Shown here: one piece after another, positions 2,684-19,152 of the stretch
Position numbering within the stretch: position 1 is the first letter of the stretch
Layout of the letters: each line of letters begins with the position of its first letter
DNA from: Clostridia bacterium
GTDB lineage: Bacteria > Bacillota > Clostridia > UBA1381 > UBA9506
Assembly (NCBI GenBank): GCA_017415145.1
Contig: JAFQJE010000007.1
Coordinates: forward strand, 1 to 64,000
Length of the DNA stretch: 64,000 nucleotides
Direction: 5' to 3'
Translations under genes and position numbers: made by a program
The notes under the pieces: generated by a model
Seen by the model: the letters and a program-made list of their open reading frames with translations, nothing else
Told to the model about the DNA's origin: nothing
The model's database searches: none

Positions 2684-3763
2684 TTATTTGTTTTCTGCCT
2701 CAAATTTCTTCATAAATTCTACTAACTTTTCTACTCCCTCTAAAGGCATTGCGTTATACATACTTGCACGCATACCGCCAACTGTTCTGTGACCTTTTAA
2801 GTTCACAAAGCCCGCCTCTTTTGATTCTTTTACAAACTTTGCGTCCAGTTCTTCATTGCCTGTAACAAAAGGAGCATTCATTAACGAACGGTCCTCTTTG
2901 GCTACTGTTCCACGAAACATTTCTGACGAATCAAGGAAATCGTATAAAATCTTTGCCTTTTTCTCGTTAATCTTCTGAATTGCCGCAACACCACCCTGTG
3001 CCTTTAACCATTCAAGCACAAGCTTCAACACGTAAATTGAATATGTAGGAGGTGTGTTATACATAGAACCATTTTTTGCGTGAATTTTGTAATCAAGCAT
3101 CGTGGGTGTACCCTCTAGCACATCTCCCAACAAGTCCTCACGTACAATTACCAATGTAACACCTGCAGGTCCTAAGTTTTTCTGAGCACCTGCAAAGAGC
3201 ATACCAAACTTTGAAACATCAATTTCTTCTGACATTACACATGATGAAATGTCTGCAATAATAGGTTTATCTGTATCGGGAAGCTCGGTAAATCGAGTTC
3301 CGTAAATTGTGTTGTTATAGCAGATATAGAAGTAATCCGCATCTTCCGAGAATGTACTCTTATCAAGCTTTGGTATGTATGAGAAAGTTTTGTCTGCAGA
3401 TGATGCAACTCTGTTTACTGTAATATATTTTTCCGCCTCTTCTGCCGCCTTTTTTGCCCATTGACCTGTTATAACGTAGTCCGCCTTTTTATTCTTTGTT
3501 CCAAAGTTTAAGGGAACCATAGCAAACTGTGTATGACCGCCGCCCTGCAAGAAAAGAACTTTATAATTATCGGGAACGTGCATCAACTCACGAACTAAGC
3601 TTTCTGCCCCCTCTATAATCGCTTCATAATCCTTGGAACGATGGCTCATTTCCATAACGGACATACCTGCATCTCCGTAATTTACCATCTCCGCCGCTGC
3701 TTTTTCTAAAACTTCAACAGGAAGCATAGAAGGGCCTGCCGAAAAATTATATACTCTATCCAT
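2684..3763 (-). CDS. serC: Phosphoserine aminotransferase
   Basis: This 359-residue PLP enzyme converts 3-phosphohydroxypyruvate and glutamate to phosphoserine, and can also act in pyridoxal phosphate synthesis. It has the family N-terminus (YNFSAGPSMLP), the GGGHTQF segment, and the PLP lysine at 195 in FAGAQKNLGPAG. The start ATG at 3763 has a GGAGGCG site. serC precedes serA and the pair has its own promoter at 3793-3821. No separate phosphoserine phosphatase gene is in the window. Confidence 0.94.
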   Translation of the reverse strand: MDRVYNFSAGPSMLPVEVLEKAAAEMVNYGDAGMSVMEMSHRSKDYEAIIEGAESLVRELMHVPDNYKVLFLQGGGHTQFAMVPLNFGTKNKKADYVITGQWAKKAAEEAEKYITVNRVASSADKTFSYIPKLDKSTFSEDADYFYICYNNTIYGTRFTELPDTDKPIIADISSCVMSEEIDVSKFGMLFAGAQKNLGPAGVTLVIVREDLLGDVLEGTPTMLDYKIHAKNGSMYNTPPTYSIYVLKLVLEWLKAQGGVAAIQKINEKKAKILYDFLDSSEMFRGTVAKEDRSLMNAPFVTGNEELDAKFVKESKEAGFVNLKGHRTVGGMRASMYNAMPLEGVEKLVEFMKKFEAENK

Positions 3764-11084: not shown

Positions 11085-11122
11085 AAAAAGGATGTTTCGT
11101 TTTAACGAAACATCCTTTTTAT
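11085..11122. terminator. Bidirectional terminator between convergent genes
   Basis: A 15-bp stem AAAAAGGATGTTTCG (11085-11099) pairs with 11106-11120 around TTTTAA. T-runs on either strand serve both the NagB-like gene and the minus-strand kinase gene, whose stop codon lies inside the stem. Confidence 0.88.
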
Positions 11123-12181
11123 TTTTCTTATCCAAAAGCTTTTTTTTGCTTTTTTTCCATGATTTATAAATTCAGAACTTTTTGCATCAACATATTTTCC
11201 GTCTTTATAAAATCCACTTAAAACACCAACAATATCGCTATCCTTTATGTCGCGTTCAATGTATGTCCGGTTGTCACCGCAAATCACGTATCCGGAAGAA
11301 GTTATCTTCATAATACGATGCATCGTGAAATGGTCGCCTCTGCGATAAACAGGAACATCGTAAAGTTTTAGAGACCCTGTTACAGGAACGATAACCACCC
11401 TGTCACCTGTTTTTAACATCGGCGCCATACTGTCACCCTGGGTTTTAGTGATATAAACCTTATTCTCACGAAGATTCTTCTCAATATCACTCTCTAATAA
11501 GGCATCTATAGCAACCTGAGCCGCCTGAATTTCCCTGTTGCAACGTATGGTATAGAATTTACATTTCTCTATTACCTTTTCAATCAATTCTATGGTTTTT
11601 GCAAATCCCAGCCCGTTTTTTGGCTTATAAATCTGGGAAAAGAGTTTTTCCAACACTTCTTCCTTCGCAATTTCTATACAGCTGTTATCTTTCGATCTTT
11701 CTATAAAGCAGATTTTATTAAGCAGCGTAGATGTATTGGTTTGAATCTTCTCTTTTCCCGCCCAGGGAGTACCATAGGCTCGTATTTTTCCGTCAACTAT
11801 ACGAATCAGGGGTTTATCGCCGTTTATAACAGTCATTCTCTCCCCCAACACTTCCTGCCACAATTCAGTATGTGTTGACTTTCCTACGCCGCTTTTTGCT
11901 AAAAACGCAATTCCCATACCCTGCACATCTAAAACCACACCATGCATTAAAAATCCGTTATAATCTATAATTTTTTCTGCAATTTGACGATATATTGCAA
12001 GACTTTCGAGATAACCTTTATCGTACTGCGCTTCAGTACCTTCAGCATCTATATGTTCCTCTGTTACACTGATTATCACATCGGGTACACCATCTGTAAG
12101 ATAATCGTTACACATTTCTTCAATGTAATTATATCTGTTCTCTATGCAAAAATTAATTTCTGCCAGTCGTATATTTATCAT
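11102..12181 (-). CDS. HPr-kinase-like P-loop domain fused to SipW/ER-type S26 peptidase domain
   Basis: This 359-residue two-domain protein is unusual. Residues ~1-225 resemble HPr kinase (HprK-related): P-loop KSGVGKST at 96-103, NGDKPLIR at 120-127 and GTPWAGKEK at 137-145. Residues ~241-325 resemble the S24/S26 signal-peptidase fold: GDSMAPML with Ser251, a MHRI motif with His288, and CGDN with Asp303, the Ser-His-Asp set of the SipW/archaeal subclass. There is no membrane segment; the C-terminal tail is strongly basic. The start lies 5 bp after the stalk-domain gene. HprK homologues phosphorylate precursor peptides in some lasso-peptide clusters, so peptide modification plus cleavage is a plausible inference. 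The substrate is unknown. Confidence 0.72.
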   Translation of the reverse strand: MINIRLAEINFCIENRYNYIEEMCNDYLTDGVPDVIISVTEEHIDAEGTEAQYDKGYLESLAIYRQIAEKIIDYNGFLMHGVVLDVQGMGIAFLAKSGVGKSTHTELWQEVLGERMTVINGDKPLIRIVDGKIRAYGTPWAGKEKIQTNTSTLLNKICFIERSKDNSCIEIAKEEVLEKLFSQIYKPKNGLGFAKTIELIEKVIEKCKFYTIRCNREIQAAQVAIDALLESDIEKNLRENKVYITKTQGDSMAPMLKTGDRVVIVPVTGSLKLYDVPVYRRGDHFTMHRIMKITSSGYVICGDNRTYIERDIKDSDIVGVLSGFYKDGKYVDAKSSEFINHGKKAKKSFWIRKIKRMFR

Positions 12182-12186
12182 GTTTC

Positions 12187-12666
12187 TTAACCCATTTGGT
12201 CAACGGTTACAGTTCTGGTTTCGGGAATCCACTCCACCTTTGCTCCCAGTGCTTCCGATACTGCACGTGCAGGAACCAGTGTACGGTCATTTGAGATAAA
12301 AGGGGGTGCATCTAATGTGAAAATCTCTCTGTCATCACTCCCTGCACGCTCGATTACCATATTTAGATTATCAATCTGCATAGTTATCATCAATTCATCT
12401 TTTGTAGCAATAATAATTCTTCCTGCGGGAATCCAATTTACCTCTGCACCTAATGCTTCAAAAATAGCACGCATAGGAACCATTGTTCTGTCGTTTACTA
12501 TCACAGGAGCAACATCTAAATCAAGAGTTCTTCCGTTTAATATAACATCAATATCCTTCTGAGCAACAGTTTCCGATGCAGGGGCAATTAATACCTCCTC
12601 TGCAGCAAAGCCTGTTGATGTAAACATTGTTAAAATAAGAACCAATGCAACAATGACTTTTTTCAT
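12187..12666 (-). CDS. Secreted stalk-domain (copper amine oxidase N-terminal-like) protein
   Basis: This 159-residue exported protein has a signal peptide (MKKVIVALVLILTMFTSTGFA, cleavage near AFA/AE). It then carries two tandem copper-amine-oxidase-N-terminal-like (stalk) repeats, each with the pattern NDRTMVPMRAIFEALGA / NDRTLVPARAVSEALGA. These domains are common on clostridial surface proteins and are thought to be structural. An in-frame start 9 codons upstream is less likely because AAAGGAG (12675-12681) fits the ATG at 12666. It sits between a membrane-protein gene and the kinase-peptidase fusion and probably shares their transcript. Confidence 0.82.
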   Translation of the reverse strand: MKKVIVALVLILTMFTSTGFAAEEVLIAPASETVAQKDIDVILNGRTLDLDVAPVIVNDRTMVPMRAIFEALGAEVNWIPAGRIIIATKDELMITMQIDNLNMVIERAGSDDREIFTLDAPPFISNDRTLVPARAVSEALGAKVEWIPETRTVTVDQMG

Positions 12667-12742
12667 AATATTTCTCCTTTTCGCTTTAAACAATTCAATA
12701 ACGCAATTGCTGGCTTACTTTATATTTAATAGCCATTCTTCC

Positions 12743-13246
12743 TTATTCATCATAATCGTAGTCTTCATCTACCACAAGCCAACCCATACCAAGGGGTGCT
12801 AGGTGAATTGTTAAGACCATCACGATATTAAATATTATCGCAGAAGTAAAACTATCAAACATAAGATGTGAAAATCGTGCAAATTTTGTTACAGAAAAAG
12901 CCCACGCATATACATTATTGTCAAAAAATGCACCTGCAGCGGTATTTGCTGCAAAAAACAAAATCTGGGCAATATATGTTGATGTATAATACTCAAATTT
13001 GTTTGCCAGTTTATAATAAAGGTTTCTCAAAAGCTGCATGTTAATAATAGCCGACAGTGCAACACCTGCACAGGTGGATGCAAATATATGCTGTTGAGTA
13101 GATATCAGTCCTATAACATCAAGTGACATTATTATCATAGACAGGGCAGCATTTACCACAAGCATATGTATTAATCGCAGTGTTGTTTCTGTTGCTAACA
13201 GTTTTATCGTATCTGTGTCCAACCTTCTGAATCTAAATTTGTTCAA
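12743..13246 (-). CDS. Hypothetical polytopic membrane protein
   Basis: This ~167-residue protein is not recognised. Hydrophobic stretches suggest four or five membrane spans, and it ends in an acidic tail (DEDYDYDE). The start is uncertain: TTG at 13246 is ten bases from an AAAGGA site, while an upstream TTG at 13255 is too close to it. The gene begins about 40 bp after a terminator hairpin, with no room for a normal promoter. It is therefore probably expressed by read-through from the surface-protein/peptide transcript. Confidence 0.6.
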   Translation of the reverse strand: MNKFRFRRLDTDTIKLLATETTLRLIHMLVVNAALSMIIMSLDVIGLISTQQHIFASTCAGVALSAIINMQLLRNLYYKLANKFEYYTSTYIAQILFFAANTAAGAFFDNNVYAWAFSVTKFARFSHLMFDSFTSAIIFNIVMVLTIHLAPLGMGWLVVDEDYDYDE

Positions 13247-13283
13247 ATATATCAAATCCTTTTGATGGTAGTAAAATAAAAAT

Positions 13284-13307
13284 CAGGGCAGCAGGAGTGC
13301 TGCCCTG
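13284..13307 (-). terminator. Terminator after the 59-residue peptide gene
   Basis: CAGGGCAGC pairs with GCTGCCCTG around a six-base loop, followed on the minus strand by ATTTTTATTTT. It divides the locus into a high-expression upstream part and a downstream part reached by read-through. The 3' leader 13308-13448 shows no convincing gene. Confidence 0.82.
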
Positions 13308-13448: not shown

Positions 13449-13628
13449 TTAGTCTGCTACACTTGTCTTTGTGCCGTAAGCTGCATTAAAGCTTGTTGCC
13501 TGATATCCTGTAGCCCGCACGCCGTTTACTACTGTTGTGGGAACTTTTGCAGTTTCACCACTTGTCTGGATAATATCCTCACTTGAAATACTAATTGCTT
13601 TAAGTGAGGGAGCTATATATTTTTTCAT
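13449..13628 (-). CDS. 59-residue peptide, candidate secreted or modified-peptide precursor
   Basis: This short gene has a strong GGAGG site before ATG at 13628 and starts 15 bp after the beta-helix gene. The peptide begins MKKYIAPSLKAISISSEDII, continues QTSG, and ends in a small-residue, Thr/Ser/Ala-rich tail that finishes TSVAD. It has no signal peptide or cysteine. Charged/hydrophobic leaders of the MKKY.xP.L type followed by TSG are familiar from small clostridial peptides of unknown role. An HprK-like kinase fused to a peptidase three genes downstream makes a processed precursor possible but unproven. Confidence 0.62.
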   Translation of the reverse strand: MKKYIAPSLKAISISSEDIIQTSGETAKVPTTVVNGVRATGYQATSFNAAYGTKTSVAD

Positions 13629-13643
13629 TTATAATAACCTCCG

Positions 13644-16600
13644 TTACTGTGCGTTGTAGCCTGAGTAGTCGTTATCAAAGTCAGGTGAACATTCTACCGC
13701 GTCAGACCAGTATATGAGTCCTTTAGATGTTATAACGTAAGCAACTGCTGCATATTCGCCTGTTGTACCCTCGGGTATGCCTATTACGTCACCGTAGAAC
13801 GCATTTGTGGCTTCATCATTCTGCTTACTTACAACTGTTGCTGTGATATCATCTGTTCTGATGTACTTGATACCTGAATCTTTAACATCTTCTGCATCAA
13901 TGTCAGCATGGAACAAGAAACGCATCATACCATACTTTGTTTCATCGTCCATATAGTATCCTGCATCTGTTCCTGTGCCCCAGTTAACTAACTTTTTACC
14001 GAAATCATCCTGGTCGTATGTGTATGCACCTACTGTTGTAAATTCAGCACGCTGTGCATATTCTAATGTCTCAGAAAGTCCTAAAGAAAGCTTAACTGTG
14101 ATATTGGGATGTTTTTCTTTAATATCATCAGAGAAATATATACCGCAGGTGAAATCTTTTACTTCACGACAAATATCCACATATTTGAAATCAAAAGGTG
14201 TTGCACCTGAAAGCACAGGGTAAACCACGCCTTCTTCTACTGTTTCAATCATTCCGTCAACAGGAATAGCAATCCAGCCGAATTCTCCATAGTTACCTGC
14301 AAGATAACAGCCTGTTGTGTCAAGCACCCCGTCTGTTAATCCACCAAATTCAATAAAGAAGTCTGTTGTGTAATTACCGTAGTAATTTTCGGCAGCTTCT
14401 TCAGGTGTATCCTTTGCGATAAACTGCATAGCTACATCCAATTCCAAATCCTTATCAGTTGCACCGTTAGGGTAACAAATATAAGTATCAGCAGGGATTG
14501 TAACTGAGCCTAAGTTTCTAACTTCTGCGTTGGGTAATGTTTTGTCTTTCTGCACAGCATCAAGTACAGCCTGAGCAGCTTCGCTCAAGGTGTTGTTAGT
14601 GAATGTAGACTGAGGTACAGTGTCATCCTGGAATGCAAGGACATTGATCGTATTGTCCGAAATTGTAGCCGCTGCAACATTGTAAACCTTGAGTCTTACA
14701 TCACCGAAGTTGTTACCTGTCACAACAGGAGAACCGCTTACAACATTTACAGTTCTGCCGGAAAGAACAGTGTTATTTATTAACTGCTCTGTGCCACGTA
14801 ACATTATTACGTTTGCACCCGAAGGAACCTGGAAGGTGTTACCTTTTACAACGAGGCCATTCTGTGCAGTCTCGGAGTAGATTGCACCACCGTTATTATT
14901 GAAGGTACAGCCCTCAATAGTAACGTTTTCTGCGTGTACACCGGTAATAAGACCGTCACTGACGTGTATAGCAGCGCCGCCACTAATTCCACAGCCGCCG
15001 GTGAAGGTTACATTCTTGATAGTACCAGAGGTGATTCCGAGTCCGTTTACATTTGCTCCCATCACGAGGTTAAGATCGTAAATGTTGTAATCACCGTCGT
15101 AGAAAATGTGATTACCGTTGCTTGCGGACTCAACATCGTTGATGGTAAGAGTATGACCGTTACCGTCGATGGTAAGACCGTCCATATCAAGATTGATAAT
15201 GGTATTGTTGCCGATGGAAAGAGTTTCAGAAATCATTACCCACTTATCAACAGTTACATCTTTAAGAAGAGTAACAGTGCCTGCAGGAGCTGCTGCCTTG
15301 ATAGCTTCCTGAATATCGTTGTATTTTACATTGCCAACTTTTGCGGCATACTGTGTCACATCTGTAGCAGTGCCGTTAATTAAAACAGAGCCGCCGTCGT
15401 AGAACATAGAGCTGTTGTCTGCACTCAAAGCTTCTCCGTCATAGGTACATTCATTGAAAGCATGTGTATTGTCATTAACTCGTGTGGTGTCGAACTCATA
15501 ACCTTCATTAAATTCACAACCTGTGAATGTTGTAGGCTGATAAGGACGACAGTATGAATAACCACTACCTTCGCCGAACTCACAATTCTCAAATGTTACT
15601 GACTTATGAACATTTGAAAAACTGGTCCAGCCAAAAAGCTTTGTATCTGTGATTGTAACTGAGCATCCCTTACTGCCTGCGTCAGAGTTGAATGTGTAAA
15701 TTACATCTTCAAATACACAATTGTCAATTACTACGTTACCATTTGCACCGGGCATAAATATACCACGCATAGCACCTGCGATAGTAAGATTTTTAACAGT
15801 ACCGCCTTTCATAGCTATTGCAGTATCCCATGTAGTATTGGCATTATTGATAGTAAGCTTGTGGCCATTACCGTCAAGAATGTCGCCCGCATCTAAAACG
15901 ATACCAGTCTTACCATAACCGGAACTCTGAGTTGCATCTGCTGTGATGTCTGCTGTCATAATGATTTGAGCCTTATCCACATTAAGAGCCTCTAAAAGTG
16001 CATCGTATGTTGCAACTTCTGTGGCAGCTACTGTGGTAACTTCTTCGCCGTTCTTTACATATTTTTTATCGCCGCAGACAACAGTTGCACCGTCTGCCAG
16101 AAATTCTGTAACATCTCCGCCGAATACGCCGCCTGAAACAAATTCGCTAACAGGAGCGATATTGTTAAAGATACCTTTGTCGAAGCTACCGCTCTTGATT
16201 TCAGCTGAAATGCCTGAAATGTTTGCTGTGCTGCCGTAATAATGCCAGTCAGCAATACGAATATTGCTGCTGCTCTTGTTTGAGTCAAAAATACCGCCGT
16301 TTACAGTCAACGAGCCTAGGCATGCCTTGTCTTTGCTACCGTTCTGAACATCAACAGCACCCATTATAATACCGCTATTGATAACAAGGTCAGCCTTTTT
16401 TGTTTCACTTACGCAGAACATACGTATTGCGCTGTACTCTGCGCAGTAAATTGTGCCGCCTTTTACTGTAACCGATGTGTCACGTATGCCGGAATATGTA
16501 TCAACAGCGTGAGGATAACCATTACGAGCTACGGTTTCAGTACTGAGGTTTTCGATTGTACCGCTTTCAATCACAAGTACACCTCTGTTGTAGATGGTGT

Positions 16601-16946
16601 CTGAGATATATTCACCGCCGTTACCATTGTCGGTATAACTGATTTTACCGCTGCGATTTTTACTGCTGTCTTTGATTGTCAGGTTACCATCATTGAGAAT
16701 CATCTGATATCCTGCTGTCTGTGTCTTTGTCTGACTGATTGTGTAACCTGCCAGATCGATTGTCAATGTTGTATCTGCAGGTACTGTGTATGTATCTGCA
16801 AGTACTACATTTTCTGTTAATTTGATAACACTATTAACAGCTTCAGGTAATGATGTTGCTGTTCCTTCTGCTGTTGCTACAGTTGTCATTGAACCGACAA
16901 TCATAATTGCAGAAAGAATGATTGCTAAAATTTTCTTTGCTTTCAT
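13644..16946 (-). CDS. Large secreted beta-helix (pectate-lyase-like) surface protein
   Basis: This 1100-residue exported protein has a signal peptide at residues 1-26 (cleavage ATA/EG). Residues ~30-800 are repetitive short strands of the type VTVKGGTIYC, NLTIKDSSKN and VVIDNCVFEDV, typical of right-handed parallel beta-helix adhesins or polysaccharide-binding proteins. The C-terminal ~280 residues are non-repetitive, with several YTxDQDDFG-like acidic patches. No LPXTG, SLH or other anchor was found, so attachment is unexplained. The ATG at 16946 follows GGAAGGAG. It lies 63 bp downstream of the TetR gene and 15 bp upstream of the small peptide gene. Confidence 0.82.
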   Translation of the reverse strand: MKAKKILAIILSAIMIVGSMTTVATAEGTATSLPEAVNSVIKLTENVVLADTYTVPADTTLTIDLAGYTISQTKTQTAGYQMILNDGNLTIKDSSKNRSGKISYTDNGNGGEYISDTIYNRGVLVIESGTIENLSTETVARNGYPHAVDTYSGIRDTSVTVKGGTIYCAEYSAIRMFCVSETKKADLVINSGIIMGAVDVQNGSKDKACLGSLTVNGGIFDSNKSSSNIRIADWHYYGSTANISGISAEIKSGSFDKGIFNNIAPVSEFVSGGVFGGDVTEFLADGATVVCGDKKYVKNGEEVTTVAATEVATYDALLEALNVDKAQIIMTADITADATQSSGYGKTGIVLDAGDILDGNGHKLTINNANTTWDTAIAMKGGTVKNLTIAGAMRGIFMPGANGNVVIDNCVFEDVIYTFNSDAGSKGCSVTITDTKLFGWTSFSNVHKSVTFENCEFGEGSGYSYCRPYQPTTFTGCEFNEGYEFDTTRVNDNTHAFNECTYDGEALSADNSSMFYDGGSVLINGTATDVTQYAAKVGNVKYNDIQEAIKAAAPAGTVTLLKDVTVDKWVMISETLSIGNNTIINLDMDGLTIDGNGHTLTINDVESASNGNHIFYDGDYNIYDLNLVMGANVNGLGITSGTIKNVTFTGGCGISGGAAIHVSDGLITGVHAENVTIEGCTFNNNGGAIYSETAQNGLVVKGNTFQVPSGANVIMLRGTEQLINNTVLSGRTVNVVSGSPVVTGNNFGDVRLKVYNVAAATISDNTINVLAFQDDTVPQSTFTNNTLSEAAQAVLDAVQKDKTLPNAEVRNLGSVTIPADTYICYPNGATDKDLELDVAMQFIAKDTPEEAAENYYGNYTTDFFIEFGGLTDGVLDTTGCYLAGNYGEFGWIAIPVDGMIETVEEGVVYPVLSGATPFDFKYVDICREVKDFTCGIYFSDDIKEKHPNITVKLSLGLSETLEYAQRAEFTTVGAYTYDQDDFGKKLVNWGTGTDAGYYMDDETKYGMMRFLFHADIDAEDVKDSGIKYIRTDDITATVVSKQNDEATNAFYGDVIGIPEGTTGEYAAVAYVITSKGLIYWSDAVECSPDFDNDYSGYNAQ

Positions 16947-17009
16947 TTCTTGAAAACTCCTTCCATAGGGTAATATTTATATCAAGCGATGTTGCTGCTT
17001 GGTCTTGGA

Positions 17010-17570
17010 TTAACTTTTGCTATCGATTTTTGACAGCAATATTTTATATATATATTCAAGTTGGGACTTGGAAAATGCATAGTCATCCCATACTACATAA
17101 TCTAAAATTGTGGCAATAAACATAAACACAAGGGGGCGAATCTCTTCAAAGGGTGCTCCTATACTCTTTGACAAGAGGTTGATATATTCTGCATATGTAT
17201 TATTCAAAGGCTCTGCGTTTTTTCTTATTCTGTCGCCAAATGTAGGGCTTGTTGCCGCCTGATAAACAAGTCTTAGAGACCGCTGTTCTATCTTTACAGC
17301 CTCCATAACACGTGAAATAAAATGTTCAAAATTGTTTATTTGTTCAGACGCTTCTGTGAAAATTCTAGCAGAAGATTTCATAAGTCCGAATTTTACGGAA
17401 TTTATAATAAAATCCTCTTTGTCCTCAAACCAGTAATAAATACTTCCCAAAGACATTCCGGTTTCCTTTGCCAAATCTCTAATAGACGTATTTTCAAGTC
17501 CATGGACCATTAAATACCTAAACGATATTTCCAATATTTCGTCAATGGATTTTTCTGTACGTTCTCGCAT
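17010..17570 (-). CDS. TetR family transcriptional regulator
   Basis: This 186-residue repressor has an N-terminal helix-turn-helix (TSIRDLAKETGMSLGSIYYWFEDKEDF, residues ~24-48) and an alpha-helical ligand-binding C-terminus with no assigned ligand. The ATG at 17570 follows AGAGG; a longer in-frame start at 17666 would run through the operator. Two palindromic operator-like sites lie directly upstream, so self-repression is likely. It is encoded between the small membrane protein and the beta-helix gene, and probably controls this locus. Confidence 0.88.
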   Translation of the reverse strand: MRERTEKSIDEILEISFRYLMVHGLENTSIRDLAKETGMSLGSIYYWFEDKEDFIINSVKFGLMKSSARIFTEASEQINNFEHFISRVMEAVKIEQRSLRLVYQAATSPTFGDRIRKNAEPLNNTYAEYINLLSKSIGAPFEEIRPLVFMFIATILDYVVWDDYAFSKSQLEYIYKILLSKIDSKS

Positions 17571-17586
17571 AAATAACCTCTTTTCT

Positions 17587-17621
17587 AAAACAATTGTTTT
17601 ATTTTTTAGAACAGTTGTTTT
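17587..17621 (-). promoter_or_regulatory. Tandem operator-like palindromes before the TetR gene
   Basis: AAAACAATTGTTTT (17587-17600) is a perfect 14-bp palindrome. AGAACAGTTGTTTT (17608-17621) is a near copy 21 bp away, two helical turns. They lie 17-50 bp before the TetR start. Confidence 0.65.
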
Positions 17622-17639
17622 AAATTCTATAAAAAAGAA

Positions 17640-17663
17640 ACGACATATACCTGATGTTGTCGT
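17640..17663 (-). terminator. Weak terminator between the small membrane protein and TetR genes
   Basis: ACGACA 17640-17645 pairs with TGTCGT 17658-17663. On the minus strand a TTCTTTTTT run follows. The stem is only 6 bp, so partial read-through is likely. Confidence 0.4.
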
Positions 17664-17713
17664 CAAAAAAAATAATAAACTGCCTTATTCTTTTTGGGTA
17701 TGTGCGATATTTT

Positions 17714-17968
17714 TTAGTCTAAGTAGTCACGTTTTAAGCGTTTTTTTCGCATTTTGCGAAATAGCGGCCCAAATATAGGAATAATCTCTAACTTCATGTA
17801 TCGATATTTTCGCTTGTAATATCTTCGTTTCTTTTCGTTATCGGTATGCTTTATTTTTGCCTTTACAGTTTTCCGATTATCAAAAAAAGGCGTAAGCACA
17901 TCTACCCAATAGCACGCAATGTACATAATTACAAATATTGCTATAGATAGTATGCCTAAACCTGTCAT
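17714..17968 (-). CDS. Small single-span membrane protein of unknown function
   Basis: This 84-residue protein has one N-terminal hydrophobic helix (LGILSIAIFVIMYIACYWV) and a highly basic cytoplasmic tail rich in KRRYYKRKYRY and RKMRKKRLKR. ATG at 17968 follows AGAAGG; a GTG at 17989 is the alternative. It is the first gene leftward of the invertible promoter segment. It would receive transcription directly if that segment flipped. It is not recognised as a known family. Confidence 0.55.
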   Translation of the reverse strand: MTGLGILSIAIFVIMYIACYWVDVLTPFFDNRKTVKAKIKHTDNEKKRRYYKRKYRYMKLEIIPIFGPLFRKMRKKRLKRDYLD

Positions 17969-17996
17969 TGTATTCGCCTTCTTTGCCACGTGATAT

Positions 17997-18290
17997 TACA
18001 TAATCGAAATTATGTAGTTAAAAAGAAGACTAAAATATTAAATTGTGCCTTTTTTTAAGGGTTAAGGGTGAGCATTCGAGAGAGTTTTCAAAAAAGGGCA
18101 TGAGTTTAAGACCAATGCGTTGTTGCTTTTTATGCATTAGTCTATTTTGCCATGCCATTTTATACTGCAAAATGACTAAAATTATATTTTTAGATAAAAA
18201 ACCTTGACATTTATCGGGGATGGATGTTATAATAACGCCGTACTTTATATGTACTATATTCAAAAATCACTACATAATTTCGATTATGTA
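17997..18290. repeat. Invertible promoter segment flanked by 22-bp perfect inverted repeats
   Basis: The left repeat 17997-18018 and right repeat 18269-18290 are exact reverse complements over 22 bp and bracket 250 bp. Each repeat is itself a dyad (TACATAAT, a four-base core CGAA or TTCG, then ATTATGTA), as expected for a tyrosine-recombinase site with an asymmetric core. The inner segment carries one clear promoter (18204-18233) and an inverted repeat 18138-18150 / 18167-18178. A tyrosine recombinase gene starts 22 bp beyond the right repeat. There is no gene in 17990-18312. Confidence 0.82.
18204..18233 (+). promoter_or_regulatory. Promoter inside the invertible segment
   Basis: TTGACA (18204-18209), an 18-bp spacer and TATAAT (18228-18233) are both perfect hexamers. 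In the sequenced orientation it points right, against the recombinase gene; inverted, it would point left into the gene at 17968. Confidence 0.8.
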
Positions 18291-18298
18291 GTTTTTTT
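18269..18298 (+). terminator. Terminator formed by the right inverted repeat
   Basis: ACTACATAAT and ATTATGTAGT form a 10-bp stem closed by a TTCG loop, then a run of seven T lies just outside the invertible segment. It should stop the segment's own promoter in the present orientation. The left repeat lacks a T-run on its outer side. Confidence 0.72.
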
Positions 18299-18312
18299 GT
18301 TTTCCGATTTAA

Positions 18313-19152
18313 TCAACAGCGCAAAAGACCCAACATTTGAATTTTTTTACGATGTATCTCCCCTGTTTCCATCGTGTAAATTCTGGTGGTGTTTACGCTT
18401 GAATGTCCCAAGATGTCAGCAAGTCTCACAATGTCTTTTTGTATTGAGTAAAAGGTTCTTGCAAACAGATGGCGAAGATTATGCGGAAAAACCTTTTCTT
18501 TTGGTACCTGTGCGACTTCGCACAGTTTTTTCATATCTGACCAGATATTTGACCTATTTAATGGACGGCCTGATTTTGTCACAAATACAGGTCCCTGTTT
18601 AATATTTCGTGACGCAGCATATTTTAAAAGTGTTTTGCATAGTGCTTTAGGTAAAAACACACGTCGTACTTTTCCCTTTGAATGGATTTGCGCCGTTTCA
18701 CTTTCCAGTGCTTCTACTGTTATACCGTGAAGCTCTGATACTCGTATACCGGTAGAGCATATCGTCTGCATTACAAGATTTAATCTTATGTTTCCCTTTT
18801 GGTTTGCTGCAGCAAGAAGTCTTGAATATTCCTTCTTTGTCAACTCTTTTTCCGTTCTTATAAAGAGTTGTTTTTGCACTTTAACAGTCTTAATGCACAA
18901 AGATTTCATCTGCAAAAAATCAAAAAAAGCATTTAAAGATGATATGGCGGCATTTGCACTTGCAATGACATAGTTTTTCTTAAGATACTCCTTATACTCA
19001 AGAACATTGGATTTTGTCAGTGTCTTGCCATTGAGCCACACAGCAAACATCCGTACATCCCGTATATACTTCTGAACTGTTGCGGCTGCTTTTTCGTTAA
19101 TTTGCAAAAATTCACGAAATTCTAAGATTTTTTCGTTTGTGATCTTCATCAT
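18313..19152 (-). CDS. Tyrosine recombinase (XerC/D-like), probable invertase
   Basis: This 279-residue site-specific recombinase has an N-terminal SAM-like core-binding domain (~1-90) and a catalytic domain. All catalytic residues are visible: Arg137 in STGIRVSE, Lys near 159-161, His224 and Arg227 in HNLRHLF, His250 in LGHSS, and the nucleophile Tyr259. The start ATG follows AAAGGAG. It is a single gene adjacent to 22-bp inverted repeats, which fits a dedicated invertase better than the housekeeping XerC/D. The right repeat also forms the end of its transcript. Confidence 0.87.
   Translation of the reverse strand: MMKITNEKILEFREFLQINEKAAATVQKYIRDVRMFAVWLNGKTLTKSNVLEYKEYLKKNYVIASANAAISSLNAFFDFLQMKSLCIKTVKVQKQLFIRTEKELTKKEYSRLLAAANQKGNIRLNLVMQTICSTGIRVSELHGITVEALESETAQIHSKGKVRRVFLPKALCKTLLKYAASRNIKQGPVFVTKSGRPLNRSNIWSDMKKLCEVAQVPKEKVFPHNLRHLFARTFYSIQKDIVRLADILGHSSVNTTRIYTMETGEIHRKKIQMLGLLRC

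Follow-up and report, generated by a model that had tools for sequence, protein, structure and literature searches.

The open reading frame at 11102–12181 (minus strand) of the window, the whole 64,000-nucleotide stretch of Clostridia DNA that was analysed, very probably encodes, as judged from its sequence, a naturally occurring fusion that joins an LppK-type peptide kinase to a soluble leader peptidase of the LppS type and acts in a RiPP pathway like that of the linear polyphosphorylated peptides (LPPs). This pathway was defined by Popov et al. (Nat Commun, May 2026; PMC13381572) and comprises a precursor with a YxxP leader (LppA), an HprK-like kinase (LppK), an RRE (LppB), a SipW-like peptidase (LppS), an exporter (LppD) and an NTP transferase (LppN). 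The kinase and the leader peptidase are ordinary parts, and it is their arrangement that is uncommon; a text search of the defining paper found neither a fusion of kinase and peptidase nor any reference to Clostridia. By analogy with the LPP system, the substrate of the fusion is most likely the YxxP peptide encoded nearby.

Two enzyme folds in one polypeptide

The gene has 359 codons with an ATG start and reads from 12181 to 11102; the frame noticed earlier exists and lies on the minus strand, the plus strand being full of stops there. The kinase half (residues 1–229; 11495–12181, minus strand) has the HprK/PEPCK fold by alignment, AlphaFold2, Foldseek and VIA-align, and carries the P-loop KSGVGKST (residues 96–103), H80 and D122. 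The peptidase half (residues 232–359; 11105–11488, minus strand) has the signal-peptidase (S24/S26) fold, with S251 in GDSM, H288 in MHR and D303 in GDN, and ends in a basic C-terminal helix (residues 336–358). The P-loop and the three catalytic residues in S26 order thus lie exactly where the earlier note had placed them, and its division into an HprK-like first half and a SipW-type second half is matched by the folds found with Pfam, NCBIfam and AlphaFold2/Foldseek. In Pfam the Peptidase_S24 match (E 1.5e-7, residues 237–320) is above the cut-off, whereas the Hpr_kinase_C match (E 1.9e-4) is significant yet under it (21.5 vs 33.3 bits). The NCBIfam matches (hpr-ser, 4e-5; sigpep_I_arch, 8e-6; nickel-SOD maturation protease, 4e-4) all fall below their cut-offs, TIGR00679 scoring 22.9 against a curated cut-off of 240.

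The AlphaFold2 model, built from 38 sequences, has a mean pLDDT of 96.2 and a pTM of 0.81. Foldseek retrieved L. casei HprK/P (4.7e-6) and PEPCKs as best matches of the kinase half, and the signal peptidases SpsB (2.3e-4) and SipA (4e-4) as those of the peptidase half. VIA-align over residues 1–235 gave a Z of 12.6 for PEPCK and about 10.9 for HprK; its list concerns mainly these residues, and the assignment of the peptidase half is based on Foldseek, Pfam and alignment. Among 13 kinase sequences E59, H80, G100, K101, T103, H104, N120, D122, P124, G137 and P139 are invariant, as are the positions of S251, M252, H288, R289, G302 and D303 among 12 peptidase sequences; the fusion has every one of these residues. 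The acidic residue of LppS is D93, for which D303 is one candidate counterpart.

A Kyte-Doolittle scan of the fusion found no transmembrane segment (highest 19-residue mean 1.58), in agreement with the soluble, anchorless enzyme proposed earlier. The peptidase half shares its fold and the GDSM...HR...GDN order with SipW and archaeal-type signal peptidase I, but differs from them in lacking the transmembrane anchor and in its predicted cytoplasmic location. Cleavage of secreted precursors, which the earlier note had taken from SipW-type enzymes, is accordingly not what the LPP analogy predicts; RRE-dependent removal of a leader in the cytoplasm would be expected instead. The kinase half has the P-loop kinase fold of HPr kinase/phosphorylase in a different gene and genomic context. 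The fusion as the cell's HPr kinase was rejected, since the genome encodes a genuine one as a separate 320-residue protein (L004).

Fused and separate forms in related loci

In the nearest relatives (G076 and G228) the two halves are separate, overlapping genes. In the syntenic locus of G076 (L073) the kinase is 58% identical to that of the window and is followed in tandem by the peptidase gene with an overlap of ~55 bp as called, in the company of YxxP peptides and a membrane protein of the kind seen in the window; G228 likewise has kinase and peptidase as two genes (L254). In a further locus (L094) the two overlap by 4 bp and are followed by an RRE and an exporter. Such overlaps mean that a small frame change would join the genes, and the joined frame comes from a single genome of its species, a MAG, so that an indel introduced by sequencing or assembly has to be considered. 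The junction itself speaks against this: it is a net 2 nt shorter than in both L073 and L094, the start codon of the peptidase is lost, and no in-frame start precedes M252, which itself lies after the catalytic serine. Three further fusions, moreover, occur in unrelated genomes, namely an Erysipelotrichaceae MAG (L115), a Bacilli MAG (L143) and G322 (L253), and we regard an artefact as improbable.

In the kinase tree the four fusions fall at four places; although this is a quick tree with many weak branches, its well supported branches require three changes or more, and the four fusions are of at least three origins. Within the class a fused match was present in two of the 96 genomes with a strong match, those of the window and of G322, which together with the fusions elsewhere makes the fusion rare but recurrent. 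A search of viral contigs found no relative of it. In the Bacilli MAG the order is RRE, fusion, exporter and NTP transferase, beside capsule-type genes, while in G322 the gene after the fusion was read as an NTP transferase. The prevailing order in 80 related loci, taken from named genomes that are mostly gut Clostridia, is kinase, RRE, peptidase, often followed by an exporter and an NTP transferase; 58 of them have an RRE close to the kinase, and the peptidase is separate in 51 and fused in 2. One locus (L256) brings the full set together: secreted protein, peptide, copper-amine-oxidase-N (CuAO-N) protein, kinase, RRE, peptidase, two NTP transferases and exporter. In another locus two peptides with YxxA-type leaders and cysteine-rich cores (L083:2630–2782 and 2907–3068) lie between the kinase and peptidase genes. 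In the window's genus a standalone LppS-like peptidase (L072:9194–9667; L021:1378–1887) lies beside tadA and an RNA methyltransferase gene, with no RRE nearby.

Elsewhere HprK/P serves as a regulatory kinase, and kinases with no peptidase nearby are common in the related genomes. Both facts would fit a kinase half that regulates the peptidase, or some other target, and leaves peptide processing to the peptidase half. The standalone homologues, however, adjoin YxxP peptides, and LppK, a kinase of the same kind, phosphorylates its own peptide (PMC13381572); a purely regulatory kinase half seems to us as improbable as a spurious junction.

The window locus and the rest of the genome

Within the window the gene order is a secreted protein of 1100 residues, a 15-bp gap, the peptide, a hairpin, a membrane protein, a CuAO-N protein, the fusion and a terminator. 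The secreted protein (13644–16946, minus strand) has a signal peptide and ends 15 bp before the peptide gene, and its C-terminal ~130 residues match the partner protein of another such peptide (L196). The strong terminator-like hairpin that separates the peptide gene from the genes downstream of it (13284–13307, minus strand) is a consensus match only and could act as an attenuator; that just 3' of the fusion gene (11085–11120, minus strand) is palindromic, was listed on the plus strand and is probably shared. The membrane protein (12743–13255, minus strand; 170 residues) matches no Pfam family. Its relatives (L073, E 2e-20; L183, 2e-10; L185, 1.5e-8; and those in L094 and L254, the pairwise match to L254 not being significant) adjoin a peptide, a kinase or both. 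The secreted CuAO-N protein, assigned by Pfam (12187–12693, minus strand; likely ATG at 12666), has counterparts of 40–43% identity that precede the kinase in four loci (L079, L256, L076 and L257).

Tyrosine recombinases 58% identical to one another flank the window locus (18313–19152) and the syntenic relative (L073:4634–5473), which belongs to a different family, a hint that the cluster may have been transferred. Upstream of the cluster the G+C content falls to 0.32 around a TetR-type regulator (16950–18300), neighbouring stretches having 0.37–0.43.

No RRE, exporter or NTP transferase was found at the window locus. The genome, which is 85% complete, has a single RRE (PqqD) protein (E 7e-15), encoded at a second locus (C6; L071:8960–9238) and matching the solved LppB 9x8z weakly (E 0.053) and TbiB1 at 0.007. 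It adjoins an ABC exporter (ABC_membrane and ABC_tran), and another secreted protein, a further peptide and a standalone kinase are encoded at the same locus; a second peptidase is encoded at C13. As the single RRE of the genome and an exporter lie at C6, the window enzyme probably borrows both in trans. PF14907 (NTP_transf_5) was not found in this 85% complete genome and is missing from many related loci too; deletion of lppN left the product unchanged in the heterologous system (PMC13381572).

Relation to the LPP pathway

The likeness to the LPP system of Paenibacillus alginolyticus extends to an HprK-like kinase, a SipW-like leader peptidase with a Ser/His/Asp set, a discrete RRE, an MsbA-like exporter, a YxxP precursor whose leader/core border carries a conserved Ser, and the absence of a cyclase. 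Of these parts the RRE and the ABC exporter would be supplied here from the other locus. The window differs in that kinase and peptidase form one protein, in that RRE and exporter are encoded elsewhere, in having no NTP transferase that could be found in the genome, and in that the precursors are scattered, in pairs with secreted proteins. The leaders differ as well, the consensus being YxxPxxExxxFxxEDIIxTSG in the window family and YxxPxVLxHQxIxFETxxS in published LPPs, which places the Ser one residue further from the Tyr.

The earlier note had cited lasso-peptide clusters for HprK homologues that phosphorylate a precursor; the nearest characterised system is the LPP pathway. Paeninodin-type lasso clusters share YxxP leaders, PqqD-type RREs and HprK-like kinases (PMC13381572), and their kinases (PadeK, ThcoK) resemble the window kinase in its predicted action on a small peptide with a YxxP/WxxP leader and an RRE; but their leader peptidase is of the B2 cysteine type, not serine-type, no credible cyclase is present in the 85% complete genome (PF00733 matches are weak, span 40–60 residues and reach 1e-5 and 5e-4), and none was recognised among the neighbours read, non-systematically, in related loci, so that a lasso kinase joined to an alternative leader peptidase is the least probable of the readings weighed here. 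Membership of a lasso cluster was rejected for want of the Asn-synthase-like macrolactam cyclase.

In the LPP system LppK modifies Ser3 of the core, and in that of P. alginolyticus leader removal by LppS needs LppB and the unphosphorylated precursor is cut poorly (PMC13381572). Because of this last property fusing the two halves makes sense, as kinase and protease would act in sequence on one substrate. By analogy with LPP chemistry, the 59-residue precursor would be produced along with the secreted protein whose gene lies immediately upstream, and the single RRE of the genome, supplied from elsewhere, would bind its YxxP leader. The kinase half may then phosphorylate Ser23 (Thr22 being less likely) at the leader/core border, and the peptidase half would cut nearby, around I20/Q21, in the cytoplasm. 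The ABC exporter beside the RRE might finally export the core, which, more speculatively, could work with the partner secreted protein. The earlier proposal of an enzyme that phosphorylates and cleaves a peptide is in this respect supported by the folds and by co-occurrence, though with the LPP rather than the lasso pathway as its setting. The natural fusion lends independent support to the proposal that phosphorylation and leader removal are coupled, and provides a single-chain enzyme for assay.

The putative precursor peptide and its leader family

The product of 59 residues that the earlier note had placed in the same locus is present at 13449–13628 (minus strand). Its leader, MKKYIAPSLKAISISSEDIIQTSG, identified by alignment, leader HMM and motif table, carries YIAPSL...EDIIQTSG, in keeping with the family leader YxxP…EDIIxTSG. 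The peptide scores 2.8e-13 with the leader HMM and 1.9e-14 in the order-wide search, being itself in the seed of both profiles. In an alignment of 12 leaders P7 and D18 do not vary, and Y4, I20 and S23 hardly do. Among 60 short ORFs, chosen by their place just after a large ORF and by [YF]xxP, the conserved positions are Y0, P3, F10 (95%), E13, D14, I15, T17 and Ser19 (95%), and conservation ends after position 20; since the loci came from the leader profile, this pattern describes the family and is no independent discovery. The window leader has Ile at +10 in place of the Phe of the family and otherwise fits. By analogy with LPPs, Ser23 is the likely phosphate acceptor.

Within the order the leader profile matches in 40 of 95 genomes. 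A strict regular expression finds a peptide in only 7 of the 80 kinase loci and the HMM in roughly a third; precursors are thus often encoded elsewhere and local co-occurrence alone is weak, and we therefore relied on a test at the level of genomes. In one related family (f3, 70 genomes) the leader is present in 37 of the 44 genomes with a kinase/peptidase match and in 1 of the 26 that have none (Fisher p≈1e-11, with genomes of the same genus non-independent), and across its 17 genera the presence of leader and of kinase/peptidase agrees in all but one. The co-occurrence anticipated in the earlier note is thus borne out across genomes. The second peptide of the genome (L071:5975–6166), flanked by a secreted protein and a standalone kinase, does not have EDIIxTSG; VPTTV is common to it and to the core of the window peptide, maybe by chance.

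Dispersed pairs of peptides and secreted proteins

The peptide proposed earlier as partner of the fusion is present in the locus, and it proved to belong to a wider YxxP-leader family found beside secreted-protein genes throughout genomes. In 70 loci, 61 of 67 peptides lie ≤400 bp, mostly 10–30 bp, downstream of a large ORF on the same strand, and of the 38 complete upstream ORFs 26 carry a crude signal-peptide signature, compared with 9 of 50 ORFs of the window. YxxP...EDIITTSG peptide genes (for example L208:4084–4260 and L182:1495–1668; L203–L242, L173–L202) number up to 25 per genome (25 leader copies in G021, 15 in G067 and 12 in G023), exceeding the one to three precursors of each LPP cluster (PMC13381572). 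The named strain Ruminococcus flavefaciens Y1 has 8 leader matches, as well as a locus with kinase, RRE, peptidase, exporter and NTP transferase in that order, and the genome of the Bacilli fusion has 1, just after a large ORF. A common C-terminal domain groups 11 of 45 partner proteins, and that of the window is linked to L196 (L173 being the window's own locus). A literature search that covered few subscription papers and no preprints found no account of YxxP peptides that occur in pairs with secreted proteins.

The defining paper gives the role of LPPs as unknown (PMC13381572). We tentatively suggest, as a possibility somewhat short of even, that the LPP-type machinery of gut Clostridia and some Bacilli works for the cell surface instead of producing a free natural product. 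Each of many secreted proteins, of which some have a C-terminal domain in common, would then be co-expressed with a short YxxP phosphopeptide of its own, and a single central set of kinase, peptidase, RRE and exporter would mature them all. If this is true, the window contains one of these pairs along with a fused kinase-peptidase. The surface role is speculation; the pairing, seen also in R. flavefaciens Y1, makes LPP function testable at the cell surface and is the part most worth testing. The C-terminal domains of the partner groups have a pattern like YxISYVIxxGxxxWSD (13644–16946; L198, L204, L207, L211, L218 and others).
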